Shown one piece after another: positions 13,431 through 33,658 of a stretch of DNA of 35,411 nt. The notes beneath the pieces are model-generated. The model made no database searches. It was given only the letters and a program-made list of their open reading frames with translations, and had not been told where the DNA came from. The stretch comes from Alphaproteobacteria bacterium (GTDB lineage: Bacteria > Pseudomonadota > Alphaproteobacteria > M2410). Within the stretch, counting starts at the first letter, position 1, and the number at the start of each line of letters is the position of its first letter. The position numbers and the translations under genes are program-made. The stretch is taken from positions 1-35,411 of the forward strand of contig JAUWTJ010000042.1 in the NCBI GenBank assembly GCA_030614785.1. Reading direction: 5' to 3'.

Positions 13431-14693
13431 CTAGGTGACATTGGGGACTTCCATCCCTACCGCATCAAACAACTGCTCGCGGATGAACTCAAAAGCTTTA
13501 TCAAGTGCATTTGCATCATCAAGAGCAACAGTCAATTTGCAACACACATTGCCAAAAATCTTATCAGAAAACCTGTCGGAATAGTTGTTTAATAAAACCA
13601 ATTTGAACCCATTTACATTTACCAAGCCAAATTCGAAATTCGCCTCTCCCAAATAATCAAGAGTGGCAGCGAGCTTTAGATATGCACTGAGTGAACTACG
13701 CACTCTCTCTAACAAAGCGCCTGTTGGAATGTAGTCAAAGGTATACTTTTCCCGCTCACTTCCACGCTCCAGCAAGCACCCATCTACTCCCCAGATTTCC
13801 CTATTTTGGAAAATCTGAGTCGAGGACATCAATTCGAAGTTAGTGTCGAACGCATATGACACAAAGCCAAGCCCATTTCTTGAATACGAGCTACTTCCAC
13901 TGCGCATCAAGAATGGAAGAACCCCTTTCGAACGGAGGGCACCTAATTCGCGCCCATTCATGACCGGCAACGAGCTACTTGGCCACATCCTCAAATATAT
14001 CAATGGCTGATCTGACGAATAACCGAAATCGACCTCTTGTCCTGCTTTCGCTGGGTCGACGTCAGACGAGACGACTGGTTTACCGTCGCCCCAATAGCTA
14101 GCAGCGTTCATTGTCGATTCAACGGGCTGATACTGAACATCTTTTACATCTGGCATACTGCCCAAGTAGGCTTTGATAATCTCGCTGAAGTGCTTTGCCA
14201 ATTTCGACTTTTCTTTTTCACGCGCAGCCTTATCGGCTGATGGAGAAAGACAATATTCTACCGGTTTCCTTTTGTGATTGAGATCAAATGGCAATTCTTT
14301 GAAGCTTCCAAAATGGTTGTTCATGACCGGAAGCAAGACTTCATCACCGTGACACCCCATTGCAAAACCGTATTCAATCGCTACGTTGCTATTGATCAAT
14401 TTCTTCTGAGCATCCTGAGTATCAGTATCTCCCATATTTTCCACGTCAACCAACCCAACCAGTGTAACGTCAGCAACAAAAACATTCGCATGTTGGATCT
14501 TGCGTAGTATCGTCTCGGCAATGCTCGGAGAGCCAAGTACTCCTTGAGTGTCTTGGTCAACTTCAATTCGTTTCGCTTCATCCACGTCGAGTTTTTCTTT
14601 AAGCTCTTCAATTGCATCATCGAGAGCCTCTCGAATGAAGCTTCTACCAATCCTGTTTGGCGTATCAGACTGCCATGAGTAAAATATCTTCAT
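13431..14693 (-). CDS. TIR-like (nucleotide-binding-fold) domain protein, putative defence effector
   Basis: The 420-residue protein has no recognised enzyme name. Its N-terminal 130 residues look like a TIR-like domain: MKIFYSWQSDTPNRIGRSFI (first strand and loop), GSPSIAETILRKIQHANVFV plus ADVT (central helix and strand), and NSNVAIEYGFAMGCHGDEVL, where Glu107 sits where TIR-like and deoxyribosyltransferase folds keep a catalytic or binding acid. The remaining 290 residues resemble nothing I know and may be a sensor; they are Ser-rich near 220-260. Base composition is AT-richer than pckA. It follows a dead xre fragment and the HEPN gene on the same strand. I infer an NAD-cleaving or nucleotide-sensing defence role; the fold call is from motifs only. 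Confidence 0.6.
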   Translation of the reverse strand: MKIFYSWQSDTPNRIGRSFIREALDDAIEELKEKLDVDEAKRIEVDQDTQGVLGSPSIAETILRKIQHANVFVADVTLVGLVDVENMGDTDTQDAQKKLINSNVAIEYGFAMGCHGDEVLLPVMNNHFGSFKELPFDLNHKRKPVEYCLSPSADKAAREKEKSKLAKHFSEIIKAYLGSMPDVKDVQYQPVESTMNAASYWGDGKPVVSSDVDPAKAGQEVDFGYSSDQPLIYLRMWPSSSLPVMNGRELGALRSKGVLPFLMRSGSSSYSRNGLGFVSYAFDTNFELMSSTQIFQNREIWGVDGCLLERGSEREKYTFDYIPTGALLERVRSSLSAYLKLAATLDYLGEANFEFGLVNVNGFKLVLLNNYSDRFSDKIFGNVCCKLTVALDDANALDKAFEFIREQLFDAVGMEVPNVT

Positions 14694-14726
14694 GCTTGAA
14701 TTTCGTCCCTCAAACCGTTTTCCAAT

Positions 14727-14879
14727 CTAGACCAACTCCACCCGCACCTCACGCCCCAGAACATTCGGAGTCTTATACAGCGTCTCGAGCTGGATCTTCA
14801 CATCATCCGGGTCAAGAATACCGTCGAGTTGACTGCGGTTTATGTTCATGAGAGCCGCCATCTTCACTTTGGTTTTGGC
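14727..14879 (-). pseudogene. Truncated second copy of the xre gene 3' end
   Basis: The reverse strand encodes KTKVKMAALMNINRSQLD then ILDPDDVKIQLETLYK and GREVRVELV before TAG 14729-14727. This aligns without gaps to the last 49 residues of the Xre protein at 15998-16288; I count about 23 base differences in about 146, roughly 84% identity. No start codon or N-terminal half is present. The copy begins right after the HEPN stop codon, and in the same frame (TAA 14882-14880). Together with the intact xre it flanks the HEPN gene and the tRNA-like sequence as a direct repeat. Confidence 0.85.
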
Positions 14880-15815
14880 TTAGACCTCCCCTTGCATCCC
14901 CAGAAAACCAATGACCTTTTTGGGTACCAATTCAGAAAGTTGTACTAACACGTCATCTTCAAACTCGACTGAGTGATCGTGCATTCTTGAGTCTGATAAG
15001 CCCAAATTTTTCAGATAGGACATAACTGCAATATGTCGATCAGATTTATCCCGCCCCCAAATACTAGAGATCCTTCTTTTCTTATGGGCTTCCTTTTCAT
15101 TTGAACCAAGAGTGTCGTCTTCAAGATCAGCACAAATCAATTGTCTAAGGTATTCTGTCTCATTCAAGGCTTTGAATTGTTCTATCTCCAAGAGACCCAC
15201 AATATTATGGGCAACCTGGATCATAGAAGCCGTTTCCTTGAAAGTCGGAGCCTTGTTCGCATCAAAGTCTTCCAGCAAACGTTCAACTTCTAAGCCCCTA
15301 TAATCAAGCGCTATCTTGTCACCATTTTCATTCAGGAGTTCCCATCGCTCTTTAGTGATATCGTTTTTAGCCAACGAATGCACACTTCTGTTTCTCCAAG
15401 CGATCATAAATTCTGTCAACGCGACTGTAACGGGATCAAGCGAAGAGTAGTGGGCCTGAAAGGCCAAGAATTTATTGAGAATGCGATTTCCACTTTCATC
15501 CACGTCGTTTCTTAAATCAGCGTTTTGAATCAAAGAGGGCTTTCGTCGCGACCAACTAATATAGGCATCCAAAGCATCCACTGCCCTGATCAATGTCATC
15601 TCCAGAACCAGTCTCCGGCTTCTACGTGACGAAGCAGTTTTATCTTTTGGATTCCACGCGGCACGGAGCTCCTTCGGCGGAGCTTTTATATCGCCCGACT
15701 CGATAGCATCTAAGCCCACAAGTATGGTGACAAGCATTTGATTGGCATTGCCAAGAAGGCTTTTGAATCGCTTTCTTGCTTGGCTGTTATTCAAATAAAG
15801 CGACAATTCGGCCAT
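14880..15815 (-). CDS. HEPN-motif (RNxxxH) protein, putative RNase effector
   Basis: This 311-residue cytosolic protein belongs to no family I can name. It is largely alpha-helical by composition and contains AWRNRSVHSLA with R141-N142-x3-H146, the Rx4-6H motif of HEPN ribonucleases, set in a helix after a DALDAY-containing helix as in HEPN bundles. The C-terminal third is charged (DLEDDTLGSNEKEAHKKRR). Several HEPN proteins (PrrC, RloC and toxin HEPNs) cut tRNA anticodon loops; here a tRNA-like sequence occupies the leader just 23 bases before the start codon. The ATG at 15815 has GAGGA immediately against it, a poorly spaced ribosome site. Composition is AT-rich, suggesting transfer. Function as RNase is inference from the motif and context. 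Confidence 0.6.
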   Translation of the reverse strand: MAELSLYLNNSQARKRFKSLLGNANQMLVTILVGLDAIESGDIKAPPKELRAAWNPKDKTASSRRSRRLVLEMTLIRAVDALDAYISWSRRKPSLIQNADLRNDVDESGNRILNKFLAFQAHYSSLDPVTVALTEFMIAWRNRSVHSLAKNDITKERWELLNENGDKIALDYRGLEVERLLEDFDANKAPTFKETASMIQVAHNIVGLLEIEQFKALNETEYLRQLICADLEDDTLGSNEKEAHKKRRISSIWGRDKSDRHIAVMSYLKNLGLSDSRMHDHSVEFEDDVLVQLSELVPKKVIGFLGMQGEV

Positions 15816-15838
15816 TCCTCAAAGCGGAGCACAACGGA

Positions 15839-15932
15839 GCGCTGGACATGATTCGAACATGCACCTTCCGTTTTGAGGGAACCCCAAAGGGCTCGTTAAA
15901 GACGGACGCTCTTACCCGCAAGCTACCAACGC
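15839..15932 (-). tRNA. tRNA-like cloverleaf with a 30-nt anticodon loop (23-nt insertion)
   Basis: The reverse strand folds as a full tRNA. The acceptor is GCGUUGG (15932-15926) with CCAGCGC (15845-15839), then UA. The D stem GCUU/GAGC encloses an eight-base loop with GGG. After one G comes the anticodon stem UCCGU (15906-15902) / ACGGA (15871-15867), five perfect pairs. The variable region is AGGU, and the T stem GCAUG/CAUGU closes the classic loop UUCGAAU. The anticodon loop (15901-15872) has 30 bases, not 7, and holds its own weak pairing (GAG...CUC, CCC...GGG). No CCA is encoded; the bases after the acceptor are UCCG. It could be a tRNA pseudogene used as an integration site, an unusual tRNA or a regulatory tRNA mimic. 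No ordinary anticodon can be assigned. Confidence 0.6.
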
Positions 15933-23675: not shown

Positions 23676-25283
23676 ATGAAATCCACTCTCGCAGACTTCG
23701 CCGACCGTCTTGCCATTCCCGTGCGCAAGGGGCTCGATCACCGCGATTTTACTCCGAACCGCATCAAGGTCGAAATGCTGTCCGGCCTGACGGTCGCGCT
23801 GGCCCTCGTGCCCGAGGCGGTGGCCTTTGCCTTCGTGGCGGGGGTTCATCCGCTGGTCGGCCTCTATGCCGCCTTCATCGTTGGCCTGATCACGGCGGTC
23901 TTCGGCGGTCGCCCCGGCATGATCTCCGGCGCAACCGGCGCGCTGGCCATCGTCATGGTCTCGCTGGTTGCAACCCACGGCGTCGAATATCTCTTCGCCA
24001 CTGTGGTCCTGATGGGCGTGATCCAGGTCCTGGCGGGCGCCTTTCACCTTGGCAAATTCATCCGGCTTGTCCCGCATCCCGTCATGATGGGTTTCGTCAA
24101 CGGTCTCGCCATTGTGATTTTCCTCGCCCAGCTCACCCAGTTCCAGGTCGCAGGTCCCGACGGCGCCAAAGCCTGGATGACCGGCATGCCGCTACTCATC
24201 ATGCTCGGGCTGGTCGCCCTGACCATGGGGATCATCTGGGTCATGCCAAAAATCACAAAGGCCATCCCCGCCCCACTAGCCGGCATCGCGGTGGTCGCCG
24301 GCCTGGTTATCTTCTTCGGTATTGATGTGCCGCGGGTCGGAGACCTTGCCTCCATTGAAGGCGGTCTGCCCCTCTTCCATCTGCCCATGGTCCCGCTGAC
24401 CCTTGAAACCCTGACCATTATTCTGCCGCACGCCCTGATCCTGGCCGCCATTGGTCTGATCGAAAGCCTCTTGACCCTTAATCTGGTTGGAGAGATTACC
24501 GGCAAGCGCGGCGGCGCCTCCAGGGACTGTATCGCCCAAGGGGTCTCCAACACCGTGACCGGATTTTTCGGCGGCATGGGCGGCTGCGCCATGATCGGCC
24601 AGTCGATGATCAATGTGAAATCCGGCGGGCGCACCCGGCTGTCCGGGATTTCCGCAGCACTCTTCCTTCTGTCGTTCATCCTTGTCGCCTCAAGTCTGAT
24701 CGAACAGATCCCGCTTGCCGCTCTCGTCGGTGTCATGTTCATGGTGGTGATCGGAACCTTCGCCTGGCAAAGCCTGACCATCATGCGCCGCATTCCCATG
24801 ACAGACGCCGTAGTCATCGTGCTGGTCACCGTTGTCACCGTCATGACCGACCTTGCCATCGCTGTGGTCGTTGGCGTTATCGTCTCCGCGCTGGCCTTTG
24901 CGTGGAGCAATGCGAAACATATTCACGGCGTGGTTCGCACTGCGCCGGATGGCACGCGGATCTATGAAATCGAAGGCCCCCTCTTCTTCGGTTCGACCGA
25001 GGGGTTTGCCGAGATCTTCGATCCCGAAGGCGACCCTGACAATGTGGTGGTCGACTTTCTGTCGAGCCGTGTGGTCGACCAGTCTGCTCTTCAAGCCATC
25101 GAATCCCTCGCCTCAAAATATGAGGCACTCGGCAAAACCTTGCAGTTGCGCCACCTCTCCCACGACTGTCACCAGCTCCTGACGCGTGCCGGCCAGCTCA
25201 TCGTCGACGCCGACGACGACCCCGATTACGAAATTGTTGTCGACTATTCAGTTAAAACCGGAAGCCTGGGCGGCGGCCACTAG
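23676..25283 (+). CDS. SulP family inorganic anion transporter with STAS domain
   Basis: This 535-residue membrane protein has ten or more hydrophobic segments, opening LSGLTVALALVPEAVAFAFV and GVHPLVGLYAAF, the SulP signature region. These are followed by GRPGMISGATGALAIVMVSL and ESLLTLNLVGEITGKRGGASRD. The C-terminal 110 residues form a cytosolic STAS domain. The group that carries EITGKRG differs from classical sulfate permeases; sulfate, bicarbonate or other anions are possible. The ATG at 23676 follows no strong ribosome site. Its stop codon lies in an 11-base tandem repeat. It converges on the dioxygenase gene. Confidence 0.92.
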   Translation: MKSTLADFADRLAIPVRKGLDHRDFTPNRIKVEMLSGLTVALALVPEAVAFAFVAGVHPLVGLYAAFIVGLITAVFGGRPGMISGATGALAIVMVSLVATHGVEYLFATVVLMGVIQVLAGAFHLGKFIRLVPHPVMMGFVNGLAIVIFLAQLTQFQVAGPDGAKAWMTGMPLLIMLGLVALTMGIIWVMPKITKAIPAPLAGIAVVAGLVIFFGIDVPRVGDLASIEGGLPLFHLPMVPLTLETLTIILPHALILAAIGLIESLLTLNLVGEITGKRGGASRDCIAQGVSNTVTGFFGGMGGCAMIGQSMINVKSGGRTRLSGISAALFLLSFILVASSLIEQIPLAALVGVMFMVVIGTFAWQSLTIMRRIPMTDAVVIVLVTVVTVMTDLAIAVVVGVIVSALAFAWSNAKHIHGVVRTAPDGTRIYEIEGPLFFGSTEGFAEIFDPEGDPDNVVVDFLSSRVVDQSALQAIESLASKYEALGKTLQLRHLSHDCHQLLTRAGQLIVDADDDPDYEIVVDYSVKTGSLGGGH

Positions 25284-25352: not shown

Positions 25353-26258
25353 CTAGCTGTTCGCTGCCGACGGCACAAAACCACTGGCGCGCTTATCCGG
25401 GCCGGTTGTCGCGAGTTCTGTCGCCGGGTCCCCGGCGATCCGTGTTGCCCGCATGACCCGGGGCTGACTGACATCATAGGGCCGCGCCCGGTGTAGCAGG
25501 CAGCGGTTGTCCCACACGACAATATCGCCGGGCTGCCACCGATGCGTATGGATGCGAGGCGGTTGGCAGGCCACGTCAAGAAGGCCCGATAAAAGCTTCC
25601 TTGAGGCATCTTCGCTCATGCCTGGAATACTGTAGGCATGACGGCCAATAAAAAGCGACTTGCGGCCCGTGACGGGATGGGTCTTGACCAGCGGGCGCAA
25701 CGGCGCACCCTTGTCGTGATAACCGTAGCCGGCACCGGTTTCAATAACATAGCCCGCCTCGGCCTGGGAATGGTACAGCGAGTGACAGGCCGAAAGTCCG
25801 GCGATCTCATCTTGTTGATCCGTATCAAGAGCATCCCAGGCCGCCCGCATATCAGCCCATTCTGTCTCGCCGCCCTCGGGCGGCACCACCTGCGCAGACA
25901 ACAGTGCAACCTTTGACGCCAGCGGCATATAGGAGCTGTCGGTATGCCACCCTTCATTGCCGCGCAAGGTCTGGAAAAGATGCTCATCCGGCGCGAGCAC
26001 AGAGCCGTCCGCCTTTCGGTTGCTGAGCGGAACACTCGGAATGTCCATGCCCGGCACCAGAGCCTCGATAGCCCCAAAGCGGCGGCCGAAAGCGGTTTGC
26101 GCCTCCGAGGTCAGATCCTGCCCCGGAAAGACCAGCATGGCATAGTCAATAAACGCCGCCTCGACAAAGGCCCACCCGGCCTCATCAAGATTTGCCAGGT
26201 CGATGTCTGTAACCGCCGCCCCGAAACTGGCATCAACGGGAGTGATCGTTGGTTCCAT
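25353..26258 (-). CDS. TauD/TfdA family Fe(II)/2-oxoglutarate dioxygenase
   Basis: This 301-residue enzyme has the His-x-Asp...His iron triad: WHTDSSY gives His105 and Asp107, and WDNRCLLHRA gives His256. The 2-oxoglutarate Arg follows in PRVMRATRIAG. The start region PVDASFGAAVTDIDL is typical of taurine, 2,4-D or related hydroxylases that couple 2-oxoglutarate decarboxylation to substrate oxidation. The ATG at 26258 has GGGAAGGGA upstream and fits the family start; an ATG at 26288 overlaps the nitroreductase stop (ATGA) and would add ten residues. It is transcribed behind the nitroreductase. The adjacent SulP anion transporter could suit a sulfonate-type substrate, but nothing proves it. 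Confidence 0.92.
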   Translation of the reverse strand: MEPTITPVDASFGAAVTDIDLANLDEAGWAFVEAAFIDYAMLVFPGQDLTSEAQTAFGRRFGAIEALVPGMDIPSVPLSNRKADGSVLAPDEHLFQTLRGNEGWHTDSSYMPLASKVALLSAQVVPPEGGETEWADMRAAWDALDTDQQDEIAGLSACHSLYHSQAEAGYVIETGAGYGYHDKGAPLRPLVKTHPVTGRKSLFIGRHAYSIPGMSEDASRKLLSGLLDVACQPPRIHTHRWQPGDIVVWDNRCLLHRARPYDVSQPRVMRATRIAGDPATELATTGPDKRASGFVPSAANS

Positions 26259-26284: not shown

Positions 26285-26959
26285 TCATTCAAACCCGACA
26301 TAACTGACAAAATCATCGCCGCCTGCACGGCGCGATTTGACCGTGTTGGCCGAAAAGTCCTCGTCGGGATAGCCCATCGCGATACAGGTCATGATGTTTT
26401 GGTCATCCGGAATGCGGGCGTGCTCACGCACCACATCGGATTGCATGATACCCTGGCCATTGATCACAGTGCCAAGGCCGCGCTCCCACGCCGCAAGACA
26501 GATGCCGTAAGAAATCGCGCCAAGATCAAACTGGCTGATTGCGGCGGGTTCAAGAATTTTGTCGTAGGTCAGAACAATAGAAACCGGCGCATCAAATTGG
26601 CGGAAGCCGCGCATCACCCAGTCCATGCGTTTTTCCTTGTCATCGCGCGCGATGCCCATGGCCTCAAACAGCTGCACGGCAATCTCGATCTGGCGCTGAC
26701 GATGAACGCCCTCGTAGGCCTCCTTCATCGGAAAGTCGCGCTTGGGCTTGACGCCCGCCACCATATTTTCGGTATTGCCCTTGCGGATCCGGTCAAGCGG
26801 CACACCGGTAACCACATGCAGATACCACGGCTGGGTATTCATCGACGACGGCGCGCCCTTGGCAACCGCGATAATTTCCTCGATCACCGCGCGCGGCACC
26901 GGATCGGGCTTGTAGCCGCGAATGCTTCTGCGAGCGCGGACCAGTTCTTCAAATTCCAT
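26285..26959 (-). CDS. Nitroreductase family flavoprotein
   Basis: From ATG 26959 (preceded by CAGGGAGTTATC) the product has 224 residues and starts MEFEELVRARRSIRGYKPDP, the usual nitroreductase opening whose Arg-Arg-Ser contacts the FMN phosphate. APSSMNTQPWYLHVVTG (FMN-binding Ser and Asn, Trp) and a GLGTVINGQ segment follow, then a C-terminal CIAMGYPDE. These homodimeric FMN enzymes reduce nitro groups, quinones or enones with NAD(P)H. A longer frame to 27067 lacks a ribosome site. The dioxygenase gene follows 26 bases later or overlaps by four, so they form a small operon. Confidence 0.92.
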   Translation of the reverse strand: MEFEELVRARRSIRGYKPDPVPRAVIEEIIAVAKGAPSSMNTQPWYLHVVTGVPLDRIRKGNTENMVAGVKPKRDFPMKEAYEGVHRQRQIEIAVQLFEAMGIARDDKEKRMDWVMRGFRQFDAPVSIVLTYDKILEPAAISQFDLGAISYGICLAAWERGLGTVINGQGIMQSDVVREHARIPDDQNIMTCIAMGYPDEDFSANTVKSRRAGGDDFVSYVGFE

Positions 26960-27029
26960 GATAACTCCCTGACATCTTGTTTTTATTGGCACATTTGGTG
27001 CCAATTTGATCAGGGAACCCGCGACCAAG

Positions 27030-28229
27030 TCAAGCGAAGTTTCGAACCTGCGAAGTAATCGCATCAATCATGGGCAAAACTGTGTGATCCATCAAATATC
27101 CCGGCGAAAGTTGCGGCGATGCAAAGCGGGCAATCACAAGTTCCGAAGACGGATCAATATAGAGCAATTGACCGTGTGCGCCGCGCGCTGCCATGCAAGT
27201 GCCGTGCGCCGTATGGCGTATCCACCATTGAGATTTGTAGGACCACCCGTCCATGGCCGCCATGCCGGCCGCAGCAAACAGATCCCTGTCACCACCCGCC
27301 ACGATTTTCTCGGCAACAGGCCTCACGACCTCGGCGGTTCGCAGAAATTCACCAAACCGCAGGAAATCACGCAGCGTGCAGCTCATCGTCGTACACGAGC
27401 CGACGGGATCGAGCATGTAGCACGCGTCATGTTCGGCCCCGATGTGCTGCCAAAGCCGAGCCGAGGCGAGCCCGCTCAAATCTTTATTGGTGACGCGCTG
27501 GATGACCCAGGTCAGCACATTGATATTGGGTTCGCGGTAGGCAAAGGCCTTGCCGTGCTCGCCCTGTTTACGAACGCTCACGAGATAGTCGGTCAGGGAT
27601 TGCGGCCCGTCGGTGTTGCCTGCCATCGGGACCATGCCCCCGCTGCGCAAATAGCGCCAGACATCGGAGCCCGCGTCCAGGTAATCTTCATGAAATTCCA
27701 TGCCGATGAGCATATCCATGACCTGGCGGAGCGTTGCATCACCCCAGGCCGTATCGGCAAGCTCCGGCAGGTAGCTCGGGATCAACGCCGTTTCATCAAG
27801 AACCCCTTCGGCAATCAGCATTTCGGCCAGTATACCCGCCACGGACTTTGCGCAGGACATGATCGCATGGGGTTGATGCGGATCGCAGGCACCGTGATAG
27901 CTTTCATGCACAAGAACCCCCTTGTGCATCACCGCCAGACCGTCGGTAAATGTGGTTTCAAGGGCCTCGCTCCAGGACAAACGATCTGCGCCGTCCGTCT
28001 CAATAGTGAGATCTTCAAAACCTGCATCCCGGGCCGACACCTCCTTCGAAGCGCCGCCGCCGCGCCAGACCGATTTGGTCGGGACGAGCTGCTGGATATT
28101 TGAGAAACTCCAGCGCAATTGCGGCCATTGATAAAACGAGCCGCCCTCAAAGCGCACGACCTTGTCTGGTGCGGGCGGGAAGCCCTGCATCCAGCCAAGG
28201 GCTCCGGGATCGTTTTCACTCATTGTCAT
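27030..28229 (-). CDS. Serine hydrolase of the class C beta-lactamase / NylB-like family
   Basis: The 399-residue protein has the catalytic Ser-x-x-Lys in IMSCAKSVAGILAEML (Ser125, Lys128) and a Tyr at 231 in FAYREPNINVLTWV. The spacing of 106 is close to that of 6-aminohexanoate-dimer hydrolase NylB. The C-terminal third has the ARGAHGQLLYIDP strand replacing the KTG motif. No signal peptide is seen, so it is probably cytosolic. It would cleave an ester or amide; the substrate is unknown. The ATG at 28229 has GGGAGAGA before it and overlaps the ligase stop by four bases. It is the last gene of the symporter-MaoC-ligase operon and so probably acts on the same compound. Confidence 0.88.
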   Translation of the reverse strand: MTMSENDPGALGWMQGFPPAPDKVVRFEGGSFYQWPQLRWSFSNIQQLVPTKSVWRGGGASKEVSARDAGFEDLTIETDGADRLSWSEALETTFTDGLAVMHKGVLVHESYHGACDPHQPHAIMSCAKSVAGILAEMLIAEGVLDETALIPSYLPELADTAWGDATLRQVMDMLIGMEFHEDYLDAGSDVWRYLRSGGMVPMAGNTDGPQSLTDYLVSVRKQGEHGKAFAYREPNINVLTWVIQRVTNKDLSGLASARLWQHIGAEHDACYMLDPVGSCTTMSCTLRDFLRFGEFLRTAEVVRPVAEKIVAGGDRDLFAAAGMAAMDGWSYKSQWWIRHTAHGTCMAARGAHGQLLYIDPSSELVIARFASPQLSPGYLMDHTVLPMIDAITSQVRNFA

Positions 28230-29818
28230 TTGCTCTCTCCCTTGTCCGCGATATCTTTCAACGTCTTCTTGTCGACCTTGCCAATGGGCAACATCGGCAG
28301 TTGGCCCATGATCGAGACCCGCTTCGGGATTTTGTAGTTAGCCAGTTTGGTCTTGAGGAAAGCACGGATCGTCTCTTCATCCAGAGCCGCGCCCGCTTCG
28401 GGCATCACAAAGCCATGACCAACCTCCTGAAACGTTGGATCAGGGAAAGACACAACGGCGGCCAGCGCAACACCGCCCATCTCTTCAAGGGCAAGTTCCA
28501 CCTCGCGCGGATAAACATTATAGCCGCCAGATTTGAACATCTCCGACATGCGGCCAACAATCTCCAGATTTCCGTCAGGCCGAACAATCGCCACATCGCC
28601 GGTTTTCAGCCAGCCATCCGGCGTAAAAGCCTCTGCCGTCGCCTCGGGACGCCCCCAATACCCGCGCATGACAAAATCGCCAAAGACCTGAATTTCGCCC
28701 TGCTCACCGGGACAGGCAAGACGATCTTCGTCATGCCACAGACGAATTGGCTGGCGCGGATCCGGTGTCCCGATGGTTTCCGACAGGGCATCAAGGGTAT
28801 CATCCAGCCGTGAGTAGGTAACACCGCCGACTGTCTCGGTCATACCGTAGCCCATGGTGCACAGCTTCGCGCCGGTTTTCTCCATCAGGGTTTCGATCAG
28901 ATCACGCGGCATCCGGGCTCCGCCCCAGGCCAGCAACTCAACGCTTGAAAGATCAATCTCCGCAAAGACCGGGGACGCCGCCGAGATCTGGAAAACAGCT
29001 GGCACCGCTCCCCAGGTGTCAATCCTCTTTTCCTCGATGAGCCGCATCATGGCAACCGGATCAAACGTCTCCTGAAAATAAAGCGTCCCGCCGCCGGTCA
29101 TGGTCCGCCCGCATATATCGCTGAGCGAGCCGACGTGATTGATCGGCAGATTGCAAATGATGCTGCGCCCCGTCAGCCCCTTTCGCTCAACAGCAATGAC
29201 ATTGCAGAAGTTCTCGCCATAGTGAGACAGAAGCGCGCCCTTGGGTTTTCCGGTGGTGCCGGAGGTATAGACAATAAAGGCCGGATCGTGGGGATCTATG
29301 ACGCGGCGCCGCTCTGCAAGGACTGCGGCGCTGCAAGCCCTTCCGCTGGCACAAAAATCTGCAAAATCCTGCGCCAGCGTGCCCGACTGCCCGAGCGGGA
29401 TGAGGACGCCGCCCGCCTCGGCGGCCAGGCTGGCAAGATCATCTGACCGATCCTGTCCTGATGCCCCCGTTTGCGCAAAGATCGCGCGTGGTTTGGCGTC
29501 ACCCACGATATGAGCAAGCTCGCCGGACGTATATTTTGGATTAAGCCCCATCCAGATCGCACCAATGGAACTCACGGCGAGAAAGTGAATGAAAAAGGAC
29601 GGCGCCGGATTGCCGAACCAGGCAACGCGGTCACCCTTCTCGATGCCCGCTTCCAGCAGTGCCCTGGCACAACCATCAACCGCCCGGGCGGCTTCCTTGT
29701 ATGTCATCTCCTCATCAGGCGATGACAGAAAGAGCGCGTCGGGGGTTCTCTCGGCGTGGAATGCGACATAGTCATGAATTAATTTCAGCAGCGGAGCTGC
29801 TTTCAAGGTGGAGGTCAT
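28226..29818 (-). CDS. AMP-forming acyl-CoA synthetase/ligase
   Basis: This 530-residue member of the ANL family has the P-loop-like FIVYTSGTTGKPKGALLSH, the A5 motif MGYGMTETVGG, the hinge/A7-A8 region GWLKTGDVAIVRPDGNLEIV plus GRMSEMFKSGGYNVYPREVE, and a C-terminal Lys in NYKIPKRV (A10). It activates a carboxylic acid with ATP to the adenylate and then to the CoA thioester. Length and SGGYNVYP fit medium-chain or aromatic acid ligases. It begins 12 bases after the MaoC gene with GAGGAT as ribosome site, and its stop overlaps the hydrolase start. Confidence 0.93.
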   Translation of the reverse strand: MTSTLKAAPLLKLIHDYVAFHAERTPDALFLSSPDEEMTYKEAARAVDGCARALLEAGIEKGDRVAWFGNPAPSFFIHFLAVSSIGAIWMGLNPKYTSGELAHIVGDAKPRAIFAQTGASGQDRSDDLASLAAEAGGVLIPLGQSGTLAQDFADFCASGRACSAAVLAERRRVIDPHDPAFIVYTSGTTGKPKGALLSHYGENFCNVIAVERKGLTGRSIICNLPINHVGSLSDICGRTMTGGGTLYFQETFDPVAMMRLIEEKRIDTWGAVPAVFQISAASPVFAEIDLSSVELLAWGGARMPRDLIETLMEKTGAKLCTMGYGMTETVGGVTYSRLDDTLDALSETIGTPDPRQPIRLWHDEDRLACPGEQGEIQVFGDFVMRGYWGRPEATAEAFTPDGWLKTGDVAIVRPDGNLEIVGRMSEMFKSGGYNVYPREVELALEEMGGVALAAVVSFPDPTFQEVGHGFVMPEAGAALDEETIRAFLKTKLANYKIPKRVSIMGQLPMLPIGKVDKKTLKDIADKGESK

Positions 29819-29829
29819 GGATCTTATCC

Positions 29830-30300
29830 TCAGGAATTAAATTGCATAAAGGCCAGCCACTCGGCAACGATGGCCGGGGTCTCGTCACCCTCGCCCTCAA
29901 TGACGGCTTCAAGGGTCGCAAGCACAGAGGTGTCTGATTTCAACACGGCATCTTTCAGCGCAAAGCGCCCGCGAAACTTTTGCCCTGTTTTGACAGGCGT
30001 AATGATCCGTATCCGGTTGAAACCGTAGTTCATCCGAAAGGCAATGTCGCCCGCAGGCCACTCCAGTGACTTCGCCATTTGCGTGAAAGTCGACAGGATG
30101 AGCGAGCCCTGAACAATTGTTCCACCAAAAGGTGTGTTCGCCTTGCACCATTCAGGATCATTGTGGATCGGCCCCTGGTCACCGGTCAGGCTCCCGTGTG
30201 CATTGATCTGGTCCTGATCGAACGACAGCCAATCGGTGATACCGATCTCCTGCCCGGCCATGGATTTGATTTCATCCAGAAAATCAACTGCATTTTTCAT
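29830..30300 (-). CDS. MaoC-like hotdog-fold dehydratase/hydratase
   Basis: From ATG 30300 the product has 156 residues, with the hydratase-2 motif DQDQINAHGSLTGDQGPIHNDPEWCK, which contains the Asp...His catalytic pair, and the following FGGTIVQGSLILSTFTQM helix. MaoC proteins hydrate enoyl-CoA esters. The alternative ATG at 30312 forms part of GGAGG, the ribosome site itself, so it is rejected. Located between the symporter (18 bases upstream) and the ligase (12 bases downstream), it would act after CoA activation of the imported acid. Confidence 0.9.
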   Translation of the reverse strand: MKNAVDFLDEIKSMAGQEIGITDWLSFDQDQINAHGSLTGDQGPIHNDPEWCKANTPFGGTIVQGSLILSTFTQMAKSLEWPAGDIAFRMNYGFNRIRIITPVKTGQKFRGRFALKDAVLKSDTSVLATLEAVIEGEGDETPAIVAEWLAFMQFNS

Positions 30301-30318
30301 AAAAACCTCCATCAGGTA

Positions 30319-31776
30319 TTATTCAGTAATCAAATTATCTGGCGCCTTGCGGTCAACCAGTCTAACGGTGGGAACGCTCGACCGGGCAGTGAGCGCGCTG
30401 ACAACGACAAGAAGAACAACGCTCGCCAGAAGGCCGAGAAAAATCGGTTCAACCCCGTGCGGCAACAAATCGATTTTTCTGAGGCCATAGGAGAGCAGCA
30501 CCACAACGGTCGCGCCGGTCAACGACACCAGTGCCGCCGTACTCGTCGCCCGACGTGAAAACAGCGCCGCCATGGTCGGAAAAAATATTCCGGACACATA
30601 AACCGCTACGGTCAGCAGCATTATTTCAAAAATCCCGCCCTTTCTCAGAGCAATAAGCGTACCGATGATCCCGATTGCGATAATGGTCCCGCGCGTCGCC
30701 CGCATGACAGTCTTGTCCTTGATGCCTGGCCTGAGCGGCTGAACCACATCGAAACCCATCGTGGTCCCACCGAGAAGCAGGGCGGTATCGGCGGTCGACA
30801 TCATCACTGCCATCAGCGCAGCCAGGCACAGGCCCTTGGCGACAGGCGGCATGTAAAGGACAATGAGTTCGGGGATTGCCGCATCACCGCCGCGCCCGTC
30901 AATGCCGAGCTCCGGGATCAGGACAGAGGCCCAGATCCCCAGCGCAATCGCGATGATGCTCCACACCACATACACCAGGATCGTCCAGTACAACGCCGTC
31001 TTCATCTGGCTATCGCTGGAGGCAGCCGCATTGCGCTGCCACAAGGACATATCGACCAGCGCCGCAGGAATATCAATGACAAAGAACGACAGAATAAACA
31101 TCACGCCCATACCGCCCAGAAGGTGTCCCGGCGATGGCTTCAAGTGCGCCATGGCCACGGCCGGGCCATCAAGGTTTGACATCACCAGCCATGGCAACAT
31201 GATGCCGATGCCCAGAACCATAATCACCGCCTGAACCAGGTCTGTATAGGCAACGGCGAAGAAACCGCCAACAACCGTATAGGCCACCATGATGAAGGCG
31301 GCCGCGAGGATCGCCTGGGTATAGGTTATCCCGCCATCCCCCGACAACGCCACAACGGCCAGACCAAAGGCAATAAGCTGTGCACTGAACAAGGCGGCAA
31401 TCGCCATCAGGATCACGACCGAAACTGCAATGCGCATCGTCGGACCAAATCGCATGGCCAGCGCGCCGGGAATTGTCCAGATCTGATTGCGCCGCAAAAT
31501 CGGTGACAGTCGGGTAAAAAGAAACAGCCCAAGCGCATAGGCAAGCGAGGCGATACCAATGGCGATGCCAACTTCATAGGCCTTGCCGGCGCGCCCCAGT
31601 GTCGCCCCGCCGCCAATTTGTGTTGCAACCAGCGTACCGAGCAAAACCGGAAACCCCAGCTTGCCCCCGGCGATGGCATAATCCTGAACCGAATTGACTT
31701 TCCGGCTCGCCAGATAGCCGACAAACAACATGCCCAGAAAATAAAAGGCGATCATTGCCAGATCGATGGTTGCCAT
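30319..31776 (-). CDS. Sodium:solute symporter (SSS) family transporter
   Basis: This 485-residue protein has about thirteen hydrophobic helices. The start MATIDLAMIAFYFLGMLFVG leads to SRKVNSVQDYAIAGGKLGFP (the SSS N-terminal signature), then ATQIGGGATLGRAGKAYEVG with the first sodium-site region and the helix FAVAYTDLVQAVIMVLGIGI. SSS proteins import sugars, amino acids or carboxylates with Na+; the substrate is unknown. GGGAGG precedes the ATG. It is the first gene of a four-gene operon ending at 27030, and its start faces the LysR gene across about 155 bases. Confidence 0.93.
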   Translation of the reverse strand: MATIDLAMIAFYFLGMLFVGYLASRKVNSVQDYAIAGGKLGFPVLLGTLVATQIGGGATLGRAGKAYEVGIAIGIASLAYALGLFLFTRLSPILRRNQIWTIPGALAMRFGPTMRIAVSVVILMAIAALFSAQLIAFGLAVVALSGDGGITYTQAILAAAFIMVAYTVVGGFFAVAYTDLVQAVIMVLGIGIMLPWLVMSNLDGPAVAMAHLKPSPGHLLGGMGVMFILSFFVIDIPAALVDMSLWQRNAAASSDSQMKTALYWTILVYVVWSIIAIALGIWASVLIPELGIDGRGGDAAIPELIVLYMPPVAKGLCLAALMAVMMSTADTALLLGGTTMGFDVVQPLRPGIKDKTVMRATRGTIIAIGIIGTLIALRKGGIFEIMLLTVAVYVSGIFFPTMAALFSRRATSTAALVSLTGATVVVLLSYGLRKIDLLPHGVEPIFLGLLASVVLLVVVSALTARSSVPTVRLVDRKAPDNLITE

Positions 31777-31858
31777 ATCGTCGTCCTCCCTGTGGTCGGC
31801 AGCAAGCCCTCCCAGGCCCGATGTGTTCCAACGATCCTGAGACTATACCGGAACCGGA

Positions 31859-31915
31859 AATATTAAAAATTGATATCTCATATATATGATATACTCTTAT
31901 ATTATATCGCAAATA
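31859..31915. promoter_or_regulatory. AT-rich divergent promoter/operator region between symporter and lysR
   Basis: This stretch is almost entirely A and T in an otherwise GC-rich neighbourhood. Its core is the perfect 12-base palindrome TCATATATATGA (31878-31889), flanked by GATATC and TATACT. TATAAT-like boxes occur in both directions but no single -35/-10 pair stands out. The position between a LysR gene and its divergent operon is where a LysR box is expected. Confidence 0.55.
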
Positions 31916-31932
31916 GAAGAGAGGCCGCCCTC

Positions 31933-32856
31933 ATGCATCTCAGAAACATCGATCTGAACCTCCTGACGGTCTTCGACGCCATCATGGCCGAAGGCAATAT
32001 GACCCGCGCCGCAGCGACCATCGGCATGACCCAGCCTGCAATCTCTTTGGCGGTCTCCAGGCTGCGCGCCCTGGTTGGCGATCCCCTCTTCGAGCGCACC
32101 GGTCGCGGCGTCAAACCCACGCCGCGCGCCCTGGCCATGGCCGCACCGGTGCGCCGCGCACTCGAAACCATTGCCAATGCCGTCGAGGCCGGCGTTGAGT
32201 TTGACTACAGGTCAGCCGACCGCACCTTCAAGCTGGTCCTCAGCGACTATGGAGAAATGCTTTACCTGCCTCCCCTGATGGGGTGGCTTGGCCAACACGG
32301 CGCCAGCATCACCATCGATACCTTCCCCGTTACCGGACTTGACGTCACAAGAGATCTTCGGTTTGGCACGATTGATCTTCTGGTCTGGCTCGAGCCGATT
32401 GAGGACGAGGAGGTATGCGTTCATCAGCTTGCCTCGGAAGGACAGGTCTGCCTCATCCGGAAAGATCATCCGTTAGCGGATAAACAAATGACTGCCGAAG
32501 ATTACGCCGCACTGGATCACCTCGCGATCCGCTTGCCCCTGGGCTACAATCAGTCTGTCGTCGCCCAGCGCATCAGGGCAAGGGGCCTCGAACGGCGCAT
32601 CGCCCTGGAAGTCCATTCCTGCCACGAAATGCCGCCGGTTATAGCGACCACGGATCTCGTCTGCACCCTGCCCACAAGAATGGCTGAAGCCATGGCCCGC
32701 CACTATCCGCTCAAGGTCATGGCAGCGCCCTTGCCTGAAATGAACCTGCCAGTCTACATGATGTGGCACAGAAGCATGGACCGCGATCCGGGCCACACCT
32801 GGCTGCGCGAACGGCTGATCAACATCGCGGAGGAAGATCAGCTCAAGCAGGCTTGA
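31933..32856 (+). CDS. LysR family transcriptional regulator
   Basis: This 307-residue regulator begins MHLRNIDLNLLTVFDAIMAE, then NMTRAAATIGMTQPAISLAV and SRLRALVGDPLF, the standard LysR winged helix (residues 1-60), followed by the RGVKPTPRA linker and a periplasmic-binding-like ligand domain. The NodD/PcaQ-like opening DLNLL is common among catabolic activators. The ATG at 31933 has AGAAGAGAGG upstream; an in-frame start at 31870 would add 21 residues with no ribosome site. It is divergent from, and probably controls, the symporter-MaoC-ligase-hydrolase operon. Its 3' end overlaps the convergent methyltransferase gene by 14 bases. Confidence 0.93.
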   Translation: MHLRNIDLNLLTVFDAIMAEGNMTRAAATIGMTQPAISLAVSRLRALVGDPLFERTGRGVKPTPRALAMAAPVRRALETIANAVEAGVEFDYRSADRTFKLVLSDYGEMLYLPPLMGWLGQHGASITIDTFPVTGLDVTRDLRFGTIDLLVWLEPIEDEEVCVHQLASEGQVCLIRKDHPLADKQMTAEDYAALDHLAIRLPLGYNQSVVAQRIRARGLERRIALEVHSCHEMPPVIATTDLVCTLPTRMAEAMARHYPLKVMAAPLPEMNLPVYMMWHRSMDRDPGHTWLRERLINIAEEDQLKQA

Positions 32857-33658
32857 GCCGATAAAGCTCCCGGCAGAGCAGCCCGCCCGCTATGACCTCG
32901 ACAAGAGCGGTATCTCTTTCGAGCCTGTCCTGAAGCTCCTCCGCGCTCATAAGATCGGCAAGCTCGACCTTGTTGTCCTGGTTGGCGTCGCGAAACGTGC
33001 CGGCGCTGTCCAGAAATTGAGCTGTCTGATCGATCACGTCCAGTACCGCCCAGCCGGTCTGCCGCAACATCTCATCATACGGTTTTTCCGACACCACAAA
33101 AGGCGGGCCGATCTCGACAGCGCGGGCGCGATCTCTGTCGTTCAAACCCGGCGCGATCGAAATGACCGAAAAAATCATCCGGCCATCACTGCGGAGCGTT
33201 CGTTGGCACTCTGCCAGCACATCCTGTTTGCCGGGCAAACAACAAAGGACGTCCGAGTGCGTTATTGCGTCGAAACTCTCATCGGCAAAGGGCAGCGTGC
33301 GACCATCAGCAACACTGGCTGAGAAGGACCCGGTGAGCCCGTCCTCTCTGGCCCGCGCTGTCGCCACCGCCAGACCTTCCAGAGGCAAATCAAGGAGCGT
33401 GATATCGCAGCCCGATTGTTTCGCCAGATAGATCCCTGGCCAGCCGGACCCGGCCCCCAGATCCATCAAGTGCTGACCCGGGCGCAGCGCCAGCATCGCG
33501 CTGACCTGGTCGATTTCCTCACGTGTCGCCCAACTGACCCCGCCATAGTCGCAGCCACACACCGCCCGCTCAATGCGCTGCATCACCGGCAGATGGCTTT
33601 GGGCGTAGGCCAGCCCGAACTGTTCCCTCAGATCTTCCTCGGCCGCCGAAAGAGCCAT
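32843..33658 (-). CDS. Class I SAM-dependent methyltransferase
   Basis: The 271-residue protein has the SAM motif I HLMDLGAGSGWPGIYLAKQS (near residue 63), the acidic residue at the end of beta 2 (ITLLDLP), motif II/III ADGRTLPFADESFDAITHSD and VLAECQRTLRSDGRMIFSVI, in the order of UbiE/MenG-like small-molecule methyltransferases. The acceptor is unknown. The ATG at 33658 has GAGGAC upstream. It lies 32 bases downstream of the polA stop on the same strand and could be read through from it; its tail overlaps lysR by 14 bases. Confidence 0.9.
   Translation of the reverse strand: MALSAAEEDLREQFGLAYAQSHLPVMQRIERAVCGCDYGGVSWATREEIDQVSAMLALRPGQHLMDLGAGSGWPGIYLAKQSGCDITLLDLPLEGLAVATARAREDGLTGSFSASVADGRTLPFADESFDAITHSDVLCCLPGKQDVLAECQRTLRSDGRMIFSVISIAPGLNDRDRARAVEIGPPFVVSEKPYDEMLRQTGWAVLDVIDQTAQFLDSAGTFRDANQDNKVELADLMSAEELQDRLERDTALVEVIAGGLLCRELYRLKPA

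Follow-up and report, generated by a model that had tools for sequence, protein, structure and literature searches.

Serine hydrolases of the NylB type are numerous, and the members with solved structures take their name from the hydrolase of a nylon by-product. In the literature on NylB-type or beta-lactamase-like hydrolases that occur with coenzyme A (CoA) ligases, MaoC proteins or symporters, the closest tested precedent for the locus described here appears, by analogy, to be Pme (PFLU3311) of Pseudomonas fluorescens SBW25. In the available part of the report on it, Pme is a NylB-like serine hydrolase of phenylpropanoid methyl esters, its closest validated relatives are 6-aminohexanoate-dimer hydrolases, and the acid that it releases is then taken by feruloyl-CoA synthetase in the proposed pathway (PMC12642758). 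A second system, likewise as far as the available text describes it, relies on the hydrolase PipM to free piperic acid, which then enters a beta-oxidation-like route (PMC12753220). The locus in question is a cluster in an alphaproteobacterium (lineage M2410; assembly GCA_030614785.1), in which a NylB-like hydrolase gene is packed together with genes for a sodium/solute symporter (SSF), a MaoC-type hydratase and an acyl-CoA ligase, next to a divergent gene for a LysR-type regulator. It lies in the window, the 35,411-nucleotide stretch of contig JAUWTJ010000042.1 that was analyzed.

With a slight lean in its favor, our reading of this cluster is that of an inducible module for a carboxylic ester, or less probably an amide, which is taken up and hydrolyzed; the acid is then coupled to CoA, and an enoyl-CoA is hydrated. 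An initial annotation of the window had described the association with an amide/ester hydrolase as unusual in the breakdown of fatty or aromatic acids, which overstates the case, given that Pme is a tested counterpart. The operon is of an ordinary type, its combination of genes is unusual, and its wider interest lies in a clade of NylB-like hydrolases tied to CoA activation.

A clade of NylB-like hydrolases beside CoA-activating genes

A scan of contigs recovered relatives of the hydrolase at six loci, in Desulfobacterales (L005, 61% identical) and Desulforhopalus singaporensis (L006, 59%), in gammaproteobacterial metagenome-assembled genomes (L007-L009, 53-54%) and in a marine gammaproteobacterium (L010, 49%). 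In samples of genomes, with the window's own genome counted each time, the hydrolase was matched in 9 of 385 genomes of the class (E<=1e-60) and 27 of 398 genomes of the phylum (E<=1e-80), all the other genomes' matches being at most 46% identical; among four genomes of the order only its own gave a match, and the matches in 139 records of a plasmid collection were all below 60%. Three further, more distant homologs (28-29% identical) are encoded in the same genome. In a tree of 49 rows (the window, the six contig-scan loci, nine loci from the class, 25 from the phylum, five from plasmids and the three homologs from the same genome), the window hydrolase belongs to a seven-row clade with L005-L010, that is, two Desulfobacterales and four gammaproteobacterial sequences (ultrafast bootstrap 90, SH-aLRT 100). 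All seven carry SCAK or SANK plus FAYREPN or FAYKEPN, and neither form occurs in the other 42 rows.

The neighborhoods of the six clade members other than the window, which was left out, were compared with those of 40 loci outside the clade, nine from the class (L020-L028), 25 from the phylum (L054-L078) and six of the 139 plasmid records (L087-L091 and L094), the comparison being confined to AMP-binding and CaiB genes sought with ten query proteins. Outside the clade, the flanks extend for about 8 kb, except at L074, where one side has just 377 bases, and at L094, where they reach 14 kb; the clade flanks are often shorter (1.9 and 0.4 kb at L005; on one side, 3.1 kb at L008 and L009 and 3.7 kb at L010), which works against finding neighbors there. 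Nevertheless, five of the six clade members, and none of the 40 other loci, have an AMP-binding or CaiB gene at a distance of up to 2.5 kb; at up to 8 kb, the count is the same five compared to two of the 40. When L005 and L006 are collapsed into one context and L007-L009 into another, the contrast at 2.5 kb is 2/3 against 0/40 (Fisher p 0.003).

The L005 and L006 ligases are only 28-30% identical to the window ligase, and the gammaproteobacterial enzyme is of a different family, the class III CoA-transferases (PF02515). Such distant ligases and an unrelated transferase do not point to one inherited cluster; the association has most likely had more than one origin and so argues for a functional link between the hydrolase and CoA activation, for which this recurrence, read from sequence comparison, is the strongest evidence in our analysis. 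The pairing of hydrolase and CoA ligase assumed in the initial annotation is thus upheld, both by the genes beside most of its nearest relatives and by the Pme precedent. More tentatively, and with somewhat less than an even chance of being right, we suggest that the sequences with the SCAK/SANK and FAY[R/K]EPN signatures form a distinct clade dedicated to releasing acids for CoA activation, whose genes became neighbors of ligase or CoA-transferase genes on separate occasions in the lineage of the window, in Desulfobacterales and in Gammaproteobacteria.

Outside the clade, NylB homologs occupy varied gene contexts. At three of these loci (L072, L088 and L090), a related gene, annotated in L090 as an alginate export family protein, lies just upstream of the homolog, an arrangement that, judged by sequence, would be a second recurrent context of the NylB-like family.

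Organization of the cluster and identity of its genes

All five genes are intact. In the order of transcription, the symporter, MaoC, ligase and hydrolase genes follow each other on the minus strand, with the LysR gene divergent, exactly as in the initial annotation. The spacing that it gave, 18, 12 and -4 bases, holds for the first junction (18) and the last (-4, an ATGA overlap of ligase and hydrolase), whereas the MaoC and ligase genes are separated by 11 bases, not 12. It also drew the limit of the operon at 27030, but the co-directional run goes on, with a nitroreductase gene 70 bases after the hydrolase gene and a dioxygenase gene 26 bases further (Table 1). Nor does the description of the operon as self-contained fit: the cluster lacks genes for later steps of beta-oxidation (a scan of nine proteins from it and its surroundings gave no acyl-CoA dehydrogenase, 3-hydroxyacyl-CoA dehydrogenase or thiolase), two more genes follow in the same direction, and the four-gene set was found in no other region examined.

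Table 1. Genes and sites of the cluster and its immediate surroundings (window coordinates)
Feature	Position	Strand	Domain matches and remarks
LysR-type regulator	31933-32856	+	PF00126 (6e-20), PF03466 (1.5e-21); likely start ATG 31933, purine-rich stretch upstream
Divergent intergenic region	31777-31932		AT-rich near-palindrome 31874-31893, candidate LysR site; inverted repeat 90% complementary
Sodium/solute symporter (SSF)	30319-31776	-	PF00474 (5.6e-31)
MaoC-type enoyl-CoA hydratase	29830-30300	-	PF01575 (5.4e-13); start 30300 chosen, GGAGG ahead
Acyl-CoA ligase (AMP-binding)	28226-29818	-	PF00501 (9.5e-72), PF13193; both over cut-off
NylB-like Ser-x-x-Lys hydrolase, presumed esterase	27030-28229	-	PF00144 (6.8e-26); score 91.7, cut-off 27
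Nitroreductase-family flavoprotein, possible fifth gene	26285-26959	-	PF00881 (3e-25)
SdpA-clade 2-oxoglutarate/Fe dioxygenase (TauD/TfdA family), possible sixth gene	25353-26258	-	PF02668 (2.7e-56); start 26258 inferred from purine-rich stretch
Sulfate permease	23676-25283		Converges on the nitroreductase/dioxygenase pair

The ligase carries YTSGTTGKPKG at residue 184 and PIGKVDKK at 511, which we take to be the core motifs of ANL ligases, and belongs to that superfamily; its best match in the PDB (8wev, 1.6e-77) is labeled 'Feruloyl-CoA Synthetase'. The MaoC protein, best matched by Rv0130 (5.9e-20), shares the G-D-x-x-x-I-H stretch of the latter in the form G-D-x-x-P-I-H, so that the Asp and His, presumably the catalytic residues, are kept. 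In the hydrolase, the catalytic set of the NylB-like PF00144 family is present, with S125 and K128 (the Ser-x-x-Lys motif) and Y231; an AlphaFold2 model made from a seven-sequence alignment was too poor for fold searching (mean predicted local distance difference test score, 59). The symporter falls under the cut-off of all seven NCBIfam models that it matched, among them those of the named subfamilies PutP (score 100.6, cut-off 515.5), PanF (83 and 328.05) and ActP (23.1 and 1099.25). A choline ester came into consideration as the substrate because the PDB chain that best matched the symporter is choline-transporter-like; it was dropped as weak, given that few SSF structures were matched and that the PutP model tops the NCBIfam matches, though far under its cut-off.

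Ligase matches at E<=1e-120 are confined to 3 of the 385 class genomes, its own counted, and at the other two (L083 and L084, 44% identical) no homolog of the window MaoC protein or hydrolase was found near the ligase; in the compared loci of NylB homologs, a set that does not include L094, no homologs of the window MaoC protein, symporter, LysR, nitroreductase or dioxygenase were found at E<=1e-4. Separate distribution of the genes among relatives, the outcome named in the initial annotation as speaking against it, is thus what was observed for the four-gene set, the symporter also being without a match at E<=1e-60 in the 384 other class genomes. The MaoC, LysR, nitroreductase and dioxygenase proteins served as queries in the plasmid collection, where neighborhoods were opened for some of the matches listed. 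Of the plasmid relatives of LysR, the best (38.5%, in Indioceanicola) is transcribed divergently from genes for a 3-hydroxyacyl-CoA dehydrogenase, a thiolase, an acyl-CoA dehydrogenase and a CoA ligase. Some relatives of the nitroreductase lie in or near beta-oxidation groups (Sphingobium JS3065, 56%; several Paracoccus entries, overlapping thiolase annotations); the closest (Sulfitobacter guttiformis, 65%) adjoins a gene for an outer-membrane protein and has a MaoC gene at a distance of 3.6 kb, and that of Polymorphobacter (58%) has no beta-oxidation-type genes around it. As a whole, the operon has the appearance of common acyl-CoA parts put together locally.

Control of the operon by the LysR-type regulator would be in keeping with the position of its gene. 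The near-palindrome in the divergent region may be its site; in a region so rich in A and T, chance palindromes are likely. Between 25200 and 33000, six promoter-like and 14 terminator-like sites were predicted, compared to 3.5 and 7.6 in shuffled sequences; these predictions are uninformative, save for the gap between the hydrolase and nitroreductase genes, in which no terminator-like site was found. At its 3' end, the LysR gene overlaps a methyltransferase gene (32843-33658, minus strand) tail to tail by 14 bases (32843-32856). Elsewhere in the window, positions 13431-15932 look like a small island: the content of G and C is 0.45-0.48 in two 2-kb windows there, against 0.55-0.60 over most of the stretch, two proteins encoded there match no Pfam or PADLOC family, and the region adjoins a tRNA gene without an assigned anticodon (15836-15932), the only RNA family found in the window, where the family match itself spans 15838-15932.

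Proposed pathway

The compound would enter through the symporter, either as such or in a charged form. Inside the cell, the hydrolase, presumed cytoplasmic (by eye, no signal peptide is evident), would form an acyl-enzyme through Ser125, with Lys128 and Tyr231 acting as acid and base, and release a free acid together with an alcohol (or amine). The ligase would then adenylate the acid and make the CoA thioester, and the MaoC protein would add water to an alpha,beta-unsaturated CoA intermediate, leaving the later steps of beta-oxidation to enzymes encoded elsewhere; the LysR-type regulator would sense the compound or an intermediate. The sequence itself shows which genes these are, how they are spaced, that their catalytic motifs are kept and that hydrolases of this clade recur beside CoA-activating genes; the order of steps, import, regulation, the nature of the substrate and the preference for an ester over an amide are inferred. 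The tight co-directional packing with its ATGA overlap, the catalytic residues kept in the hydrolase, MaoC protein and ligase, the neighbors of the clade members, the Pme precedent, the feruloyl-CoA synthetase label on the best PDB match of the ligase and the adjacent ligase and MaoC genes on a Novosphingobium plasmid all speak in favor of this scheme.

Several observations weigh against the proposed pathway or the clade behind it. Specificity for esters is a presumption. The symporter has no match beyond its own at E<=1e-60 in the 385 genomes of the class and at E<=1e-90 in the 398 genomes of the phylum, and the full set appears in no other region examined, whether reached through the hydrolase or symporter (class and phylum), the ligase (class) or any of the seven genes (plasmids). 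The contrast in neighbors weakens at 8 kb (collapsed, 2/3 against 2/40, p 0.019), its signal comes from only two of the three collapsed contexts in a test that treats loci as independent, L010 is a clade member with no AMP-binding or CaiB gene nearby, the L005 neighborhood is cut by a 3.4-kb contig, and other CoA enzymes beside outside-clade homologs would escape a search for these two families only. The bootstrap of 90 for the clade is below the 95 that the program stars, in a midpoint-rooted tree with long branches, that of L003 above all. For an aromatic version of the pathway, the genome-wide markers considered next count against it as well.

Alternative explanations

Among the other explanations, it is unlikely, although there is something to be said for it, that the substrate is a phenylpropanoid (hydroxycinnamate) methyl ester, cleaved by a Pme-like esterase and activated by a feruloyl-CoA-synthetase-like ligase, with MaoC replacing the usual hydratase/lyase. 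The Pme precedent, so far as its report is available (PMC12642758), and the label on the top PDB match of the ligase fit this idea, and so does the gene for a PF04909 amidohydrolase that adjoins the Desulfobacterales clade members: CouO, of p-hydroxycinnamate catabolism in Rhodococcus, is placed in the amidohydrolase superfamily in the available text on it (PMC4737184), and is likened here by that description of superfamily. However, the window hydrolase is likened to PFLU3311 by published description rather than by sequence, and no vanillin-dehydrogenase-type gene is among the nine proteins scanned. Furthermore, the genome (G000; 3.86 Mb in 148 contigs, 99.11% complete) has no match to PF00775 (intradiol), PF02900 (LigB), PF05138 (PaaA/PaaC) or TIGR03225 (BoxB), extradiol PF00903-type, gentisate and homogentisate enzymes being outside this search; in controls, the first three families were each found in 4 of 14 genomes, and for BoxB, which made a weak control, one of the 14 gave a match, below the cut-off. 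With four marker families unmatched, the classical aromatic route is weakened, and an aromatic substrate is doubtful.

Of similarly low probability is a fortuitous grouping, in which the symporter, MaoC protein and ligase serve one acid and the hydrolase something separate. The four genes were not found together in the genomes searched, and the varied contexts of NylB homologs outside the clade also fit a chance encounter. Against mere coincidence stand the ATGA overlap of the hydrolase and ligase genes and the recurrence of CoA-activating genes beside members of the clade.

Somewhat less probable still is a unit of six genes whose substrate would be an aryloxy- or alkoxy-alkanoic ester; the dioxygenase would cleave the ether, and the ligase would take another acid part. 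The nitroreductase and dioxygenase genes may belong to the operon: they are on the same strand, at short distances and, as noted, with no terminator-like site in the 70-base gap. Yet a hairpin between the hydrolase and nitroreductase genes may mark a separate unit. Nested inverted repeats lie there at 26966-27016, the inner one a perfect 8-bp repeat with GG-N10-GC spacing, which we take to be that of sigma-54 promoters, and the outer one a 7-bp repeat overlapping the Shine-Dalgarno region of the nitroreductase gene. The outer stem forms in the centroid structure and is replaced by another pairing in the minimum-energy structure, and the predicted fold is only modestly better than those of shuffled sequences (z -1.68; 12 of 200 shuffles fold as well), so that this hairpin is a lead, no more.

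The dioxygenase is 52-54% identical to two SdpA-type proteins, compared to 39% for TfdA and 34% for TauD, and in an eight-row tree it falls in the SdpA clade, apart from TfdA and TauD (support 100/100). In the accessible text of a report on herbicide degraders, SdpA and RdpA cleave the enantiomers of racemic compounds, SdpA/AAD-12 act on aryloxyalkanoate herbicides, and AAD-12, which is SdpA, degrades fluroxypyr (PMC4507535). Set against this precedent, no homolog of the dioxygenase or nitroreductase was found (E<=1e-4) at the loci of the six other clade members, nor any ring-cleavage route for a released phenol among the marker families tested. It may be added that the SdpA-clade dioxygenase resides in a genome without a match to the four markers of aromatic catabolism. 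An N-acyl-taurine substrate, brought to mind by the TauD-family gene, the taurine-associated Desulforhopalus and the convergent sulfate permease, was dropped once the dioxygenase was seen to group with SdpA rather than TauD.

A nylon-like or cyclic oligomeric amide, degraded by a hydrolase that is NylB-like in action, is very improbable. The best characterized relatives of the hydrolase are indeed 6-aminohexanoate-dimer hydrolases (NylB-type PDB structures, 9.8e-45 to 3.4e-40), and Tyr170 and Tyr215 of NylB are kept as Y183 and Y231. By contrast, in an alignment to a solved chain that itself carries Gly181 and His266, position 181 corresponds to Leu194 of the hydrolase, and position 266 falls inside a deletion; Asp181 and Asn266 are important for hydrolysis of the linear dimer in a NylB-type enzyme, as stated in the part of that study at hand (PMC7019077), and this pair, the mark of a functional 6-aminohexanoate-dimer hydrolase (NylB/EII), is thus absent. 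Besides, none of the six co-directional genes matches an amidase or NylC-type Pfam family. The cyclic-oligomer substrate suggested in the initial annotation was accordingly rejected as the leading idea, and with these two positions unconserved, the family name says little about nylon where this hydrolase is concerned.

Finally, there is very little to recommend the notion that the CoA thioester, and not the imported compound, is what the hydrolase acts on or with, as an editing thioesterase or a LovD-like acyltransferase. Although CoA-activating genes adjoin five of the six other clade members, the beta-lactamase fold hosts acyltransferases such as LovD, and the hydrolase weakly matches a model for 3-succinylated cholic acid synthase (22 bits, cut-off 800), no gene making an acyl acceptor was recognized among the nine proteins scanned, and the known relatives, NylB and Pme, hydrolyze amides or esters.

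Comparison with known systems

If the suggested clade of acid-releasing hydrolases is real, it would define an as yet uncharacterized natural ester or amide that is eaten by marine and sediment bacteria, to judge by their presumed habitats, both with and without oxygen. The location of the clade beside CoA-activating enzymes points to a natural role for NylB-like proteins, the release of acids for CoA-dependent degradation; it offers a small, testable set of genes and active-site signatures and would warn against inferring a 'nylon hydrolase' from what the family is called.

The cluster resembles the Pme system with its ech/fcs genes in that a serine hydrolase releases an acid for a CoA synthetase and the genes lie near each other. 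In the Pme system, insofar as its report is available, the hydrolase gene is in a neighboring cluster, the hydratase/lyase is Ech, the regulators are of MarR, TetR and sigma-54 types, and known aromatic pathways follow, whereas the window has a MaoC hydratase, an SSF symporter and a LysR regulator in a genome where the four aromatic markers were not found, and the likeness is drawn by description. With NylB (PDB 1wyb, 2zm0 and others), the hydrolase shares PF00144, the Ser-x-x-Lys motif and the equivalents of Tyr215 and Tyr170; it differs at positions 181 and 266, and its gene overlaps that of a CoA ligase. The PipM route follows a similar logic in the text available, although PipM is unrelated to the window hydrolase.

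On the plasmid pTHN of Novosphingobium sp. THN1 (L085), ligase (40%) and MaoC (37%) genes are neighbors, as in the window, but they are divergent, no NylB homolog was found, and a gene for an S15-type hydrolase (PF02129) adjoins that of MaoC. At the gammaproteobacterial loci L007-L009, the hydrolase gene is 146 bases from a CoA-activating gene, which encodes a tandem class III CoA-transferase instead of a ligase, and no homolog of the window symporter or MaoC protein was found; L007 (6561-19073) also has, within 9 kb, two proteins like ring-hydroxylating dioxygenases and a symporter of the GPH type, none of which reaches its NCBIfam cut-off. At L006 (1297-8955), genes for a BNR/YCF48-like protein and an MMPL transporter lie upstream of those for the amidohydrolase, the ligase, a 492-amino-acid protein and the NylB-like hydrolase; the 492-amino-acid protein, membrane-protein-like and placed between ligase and hydrolase, has no Pfam or NCBIfam match and no match to the window SSF. 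Although L005 and L006 differ from the window in their distant ligases, in the PF04909 amidohydrolase and in that no MaoC homolog was found there, it is at these two loci that, as in the window, the hydrolase gene and an acyl-CoA ligase gene form part of one co-directional run.

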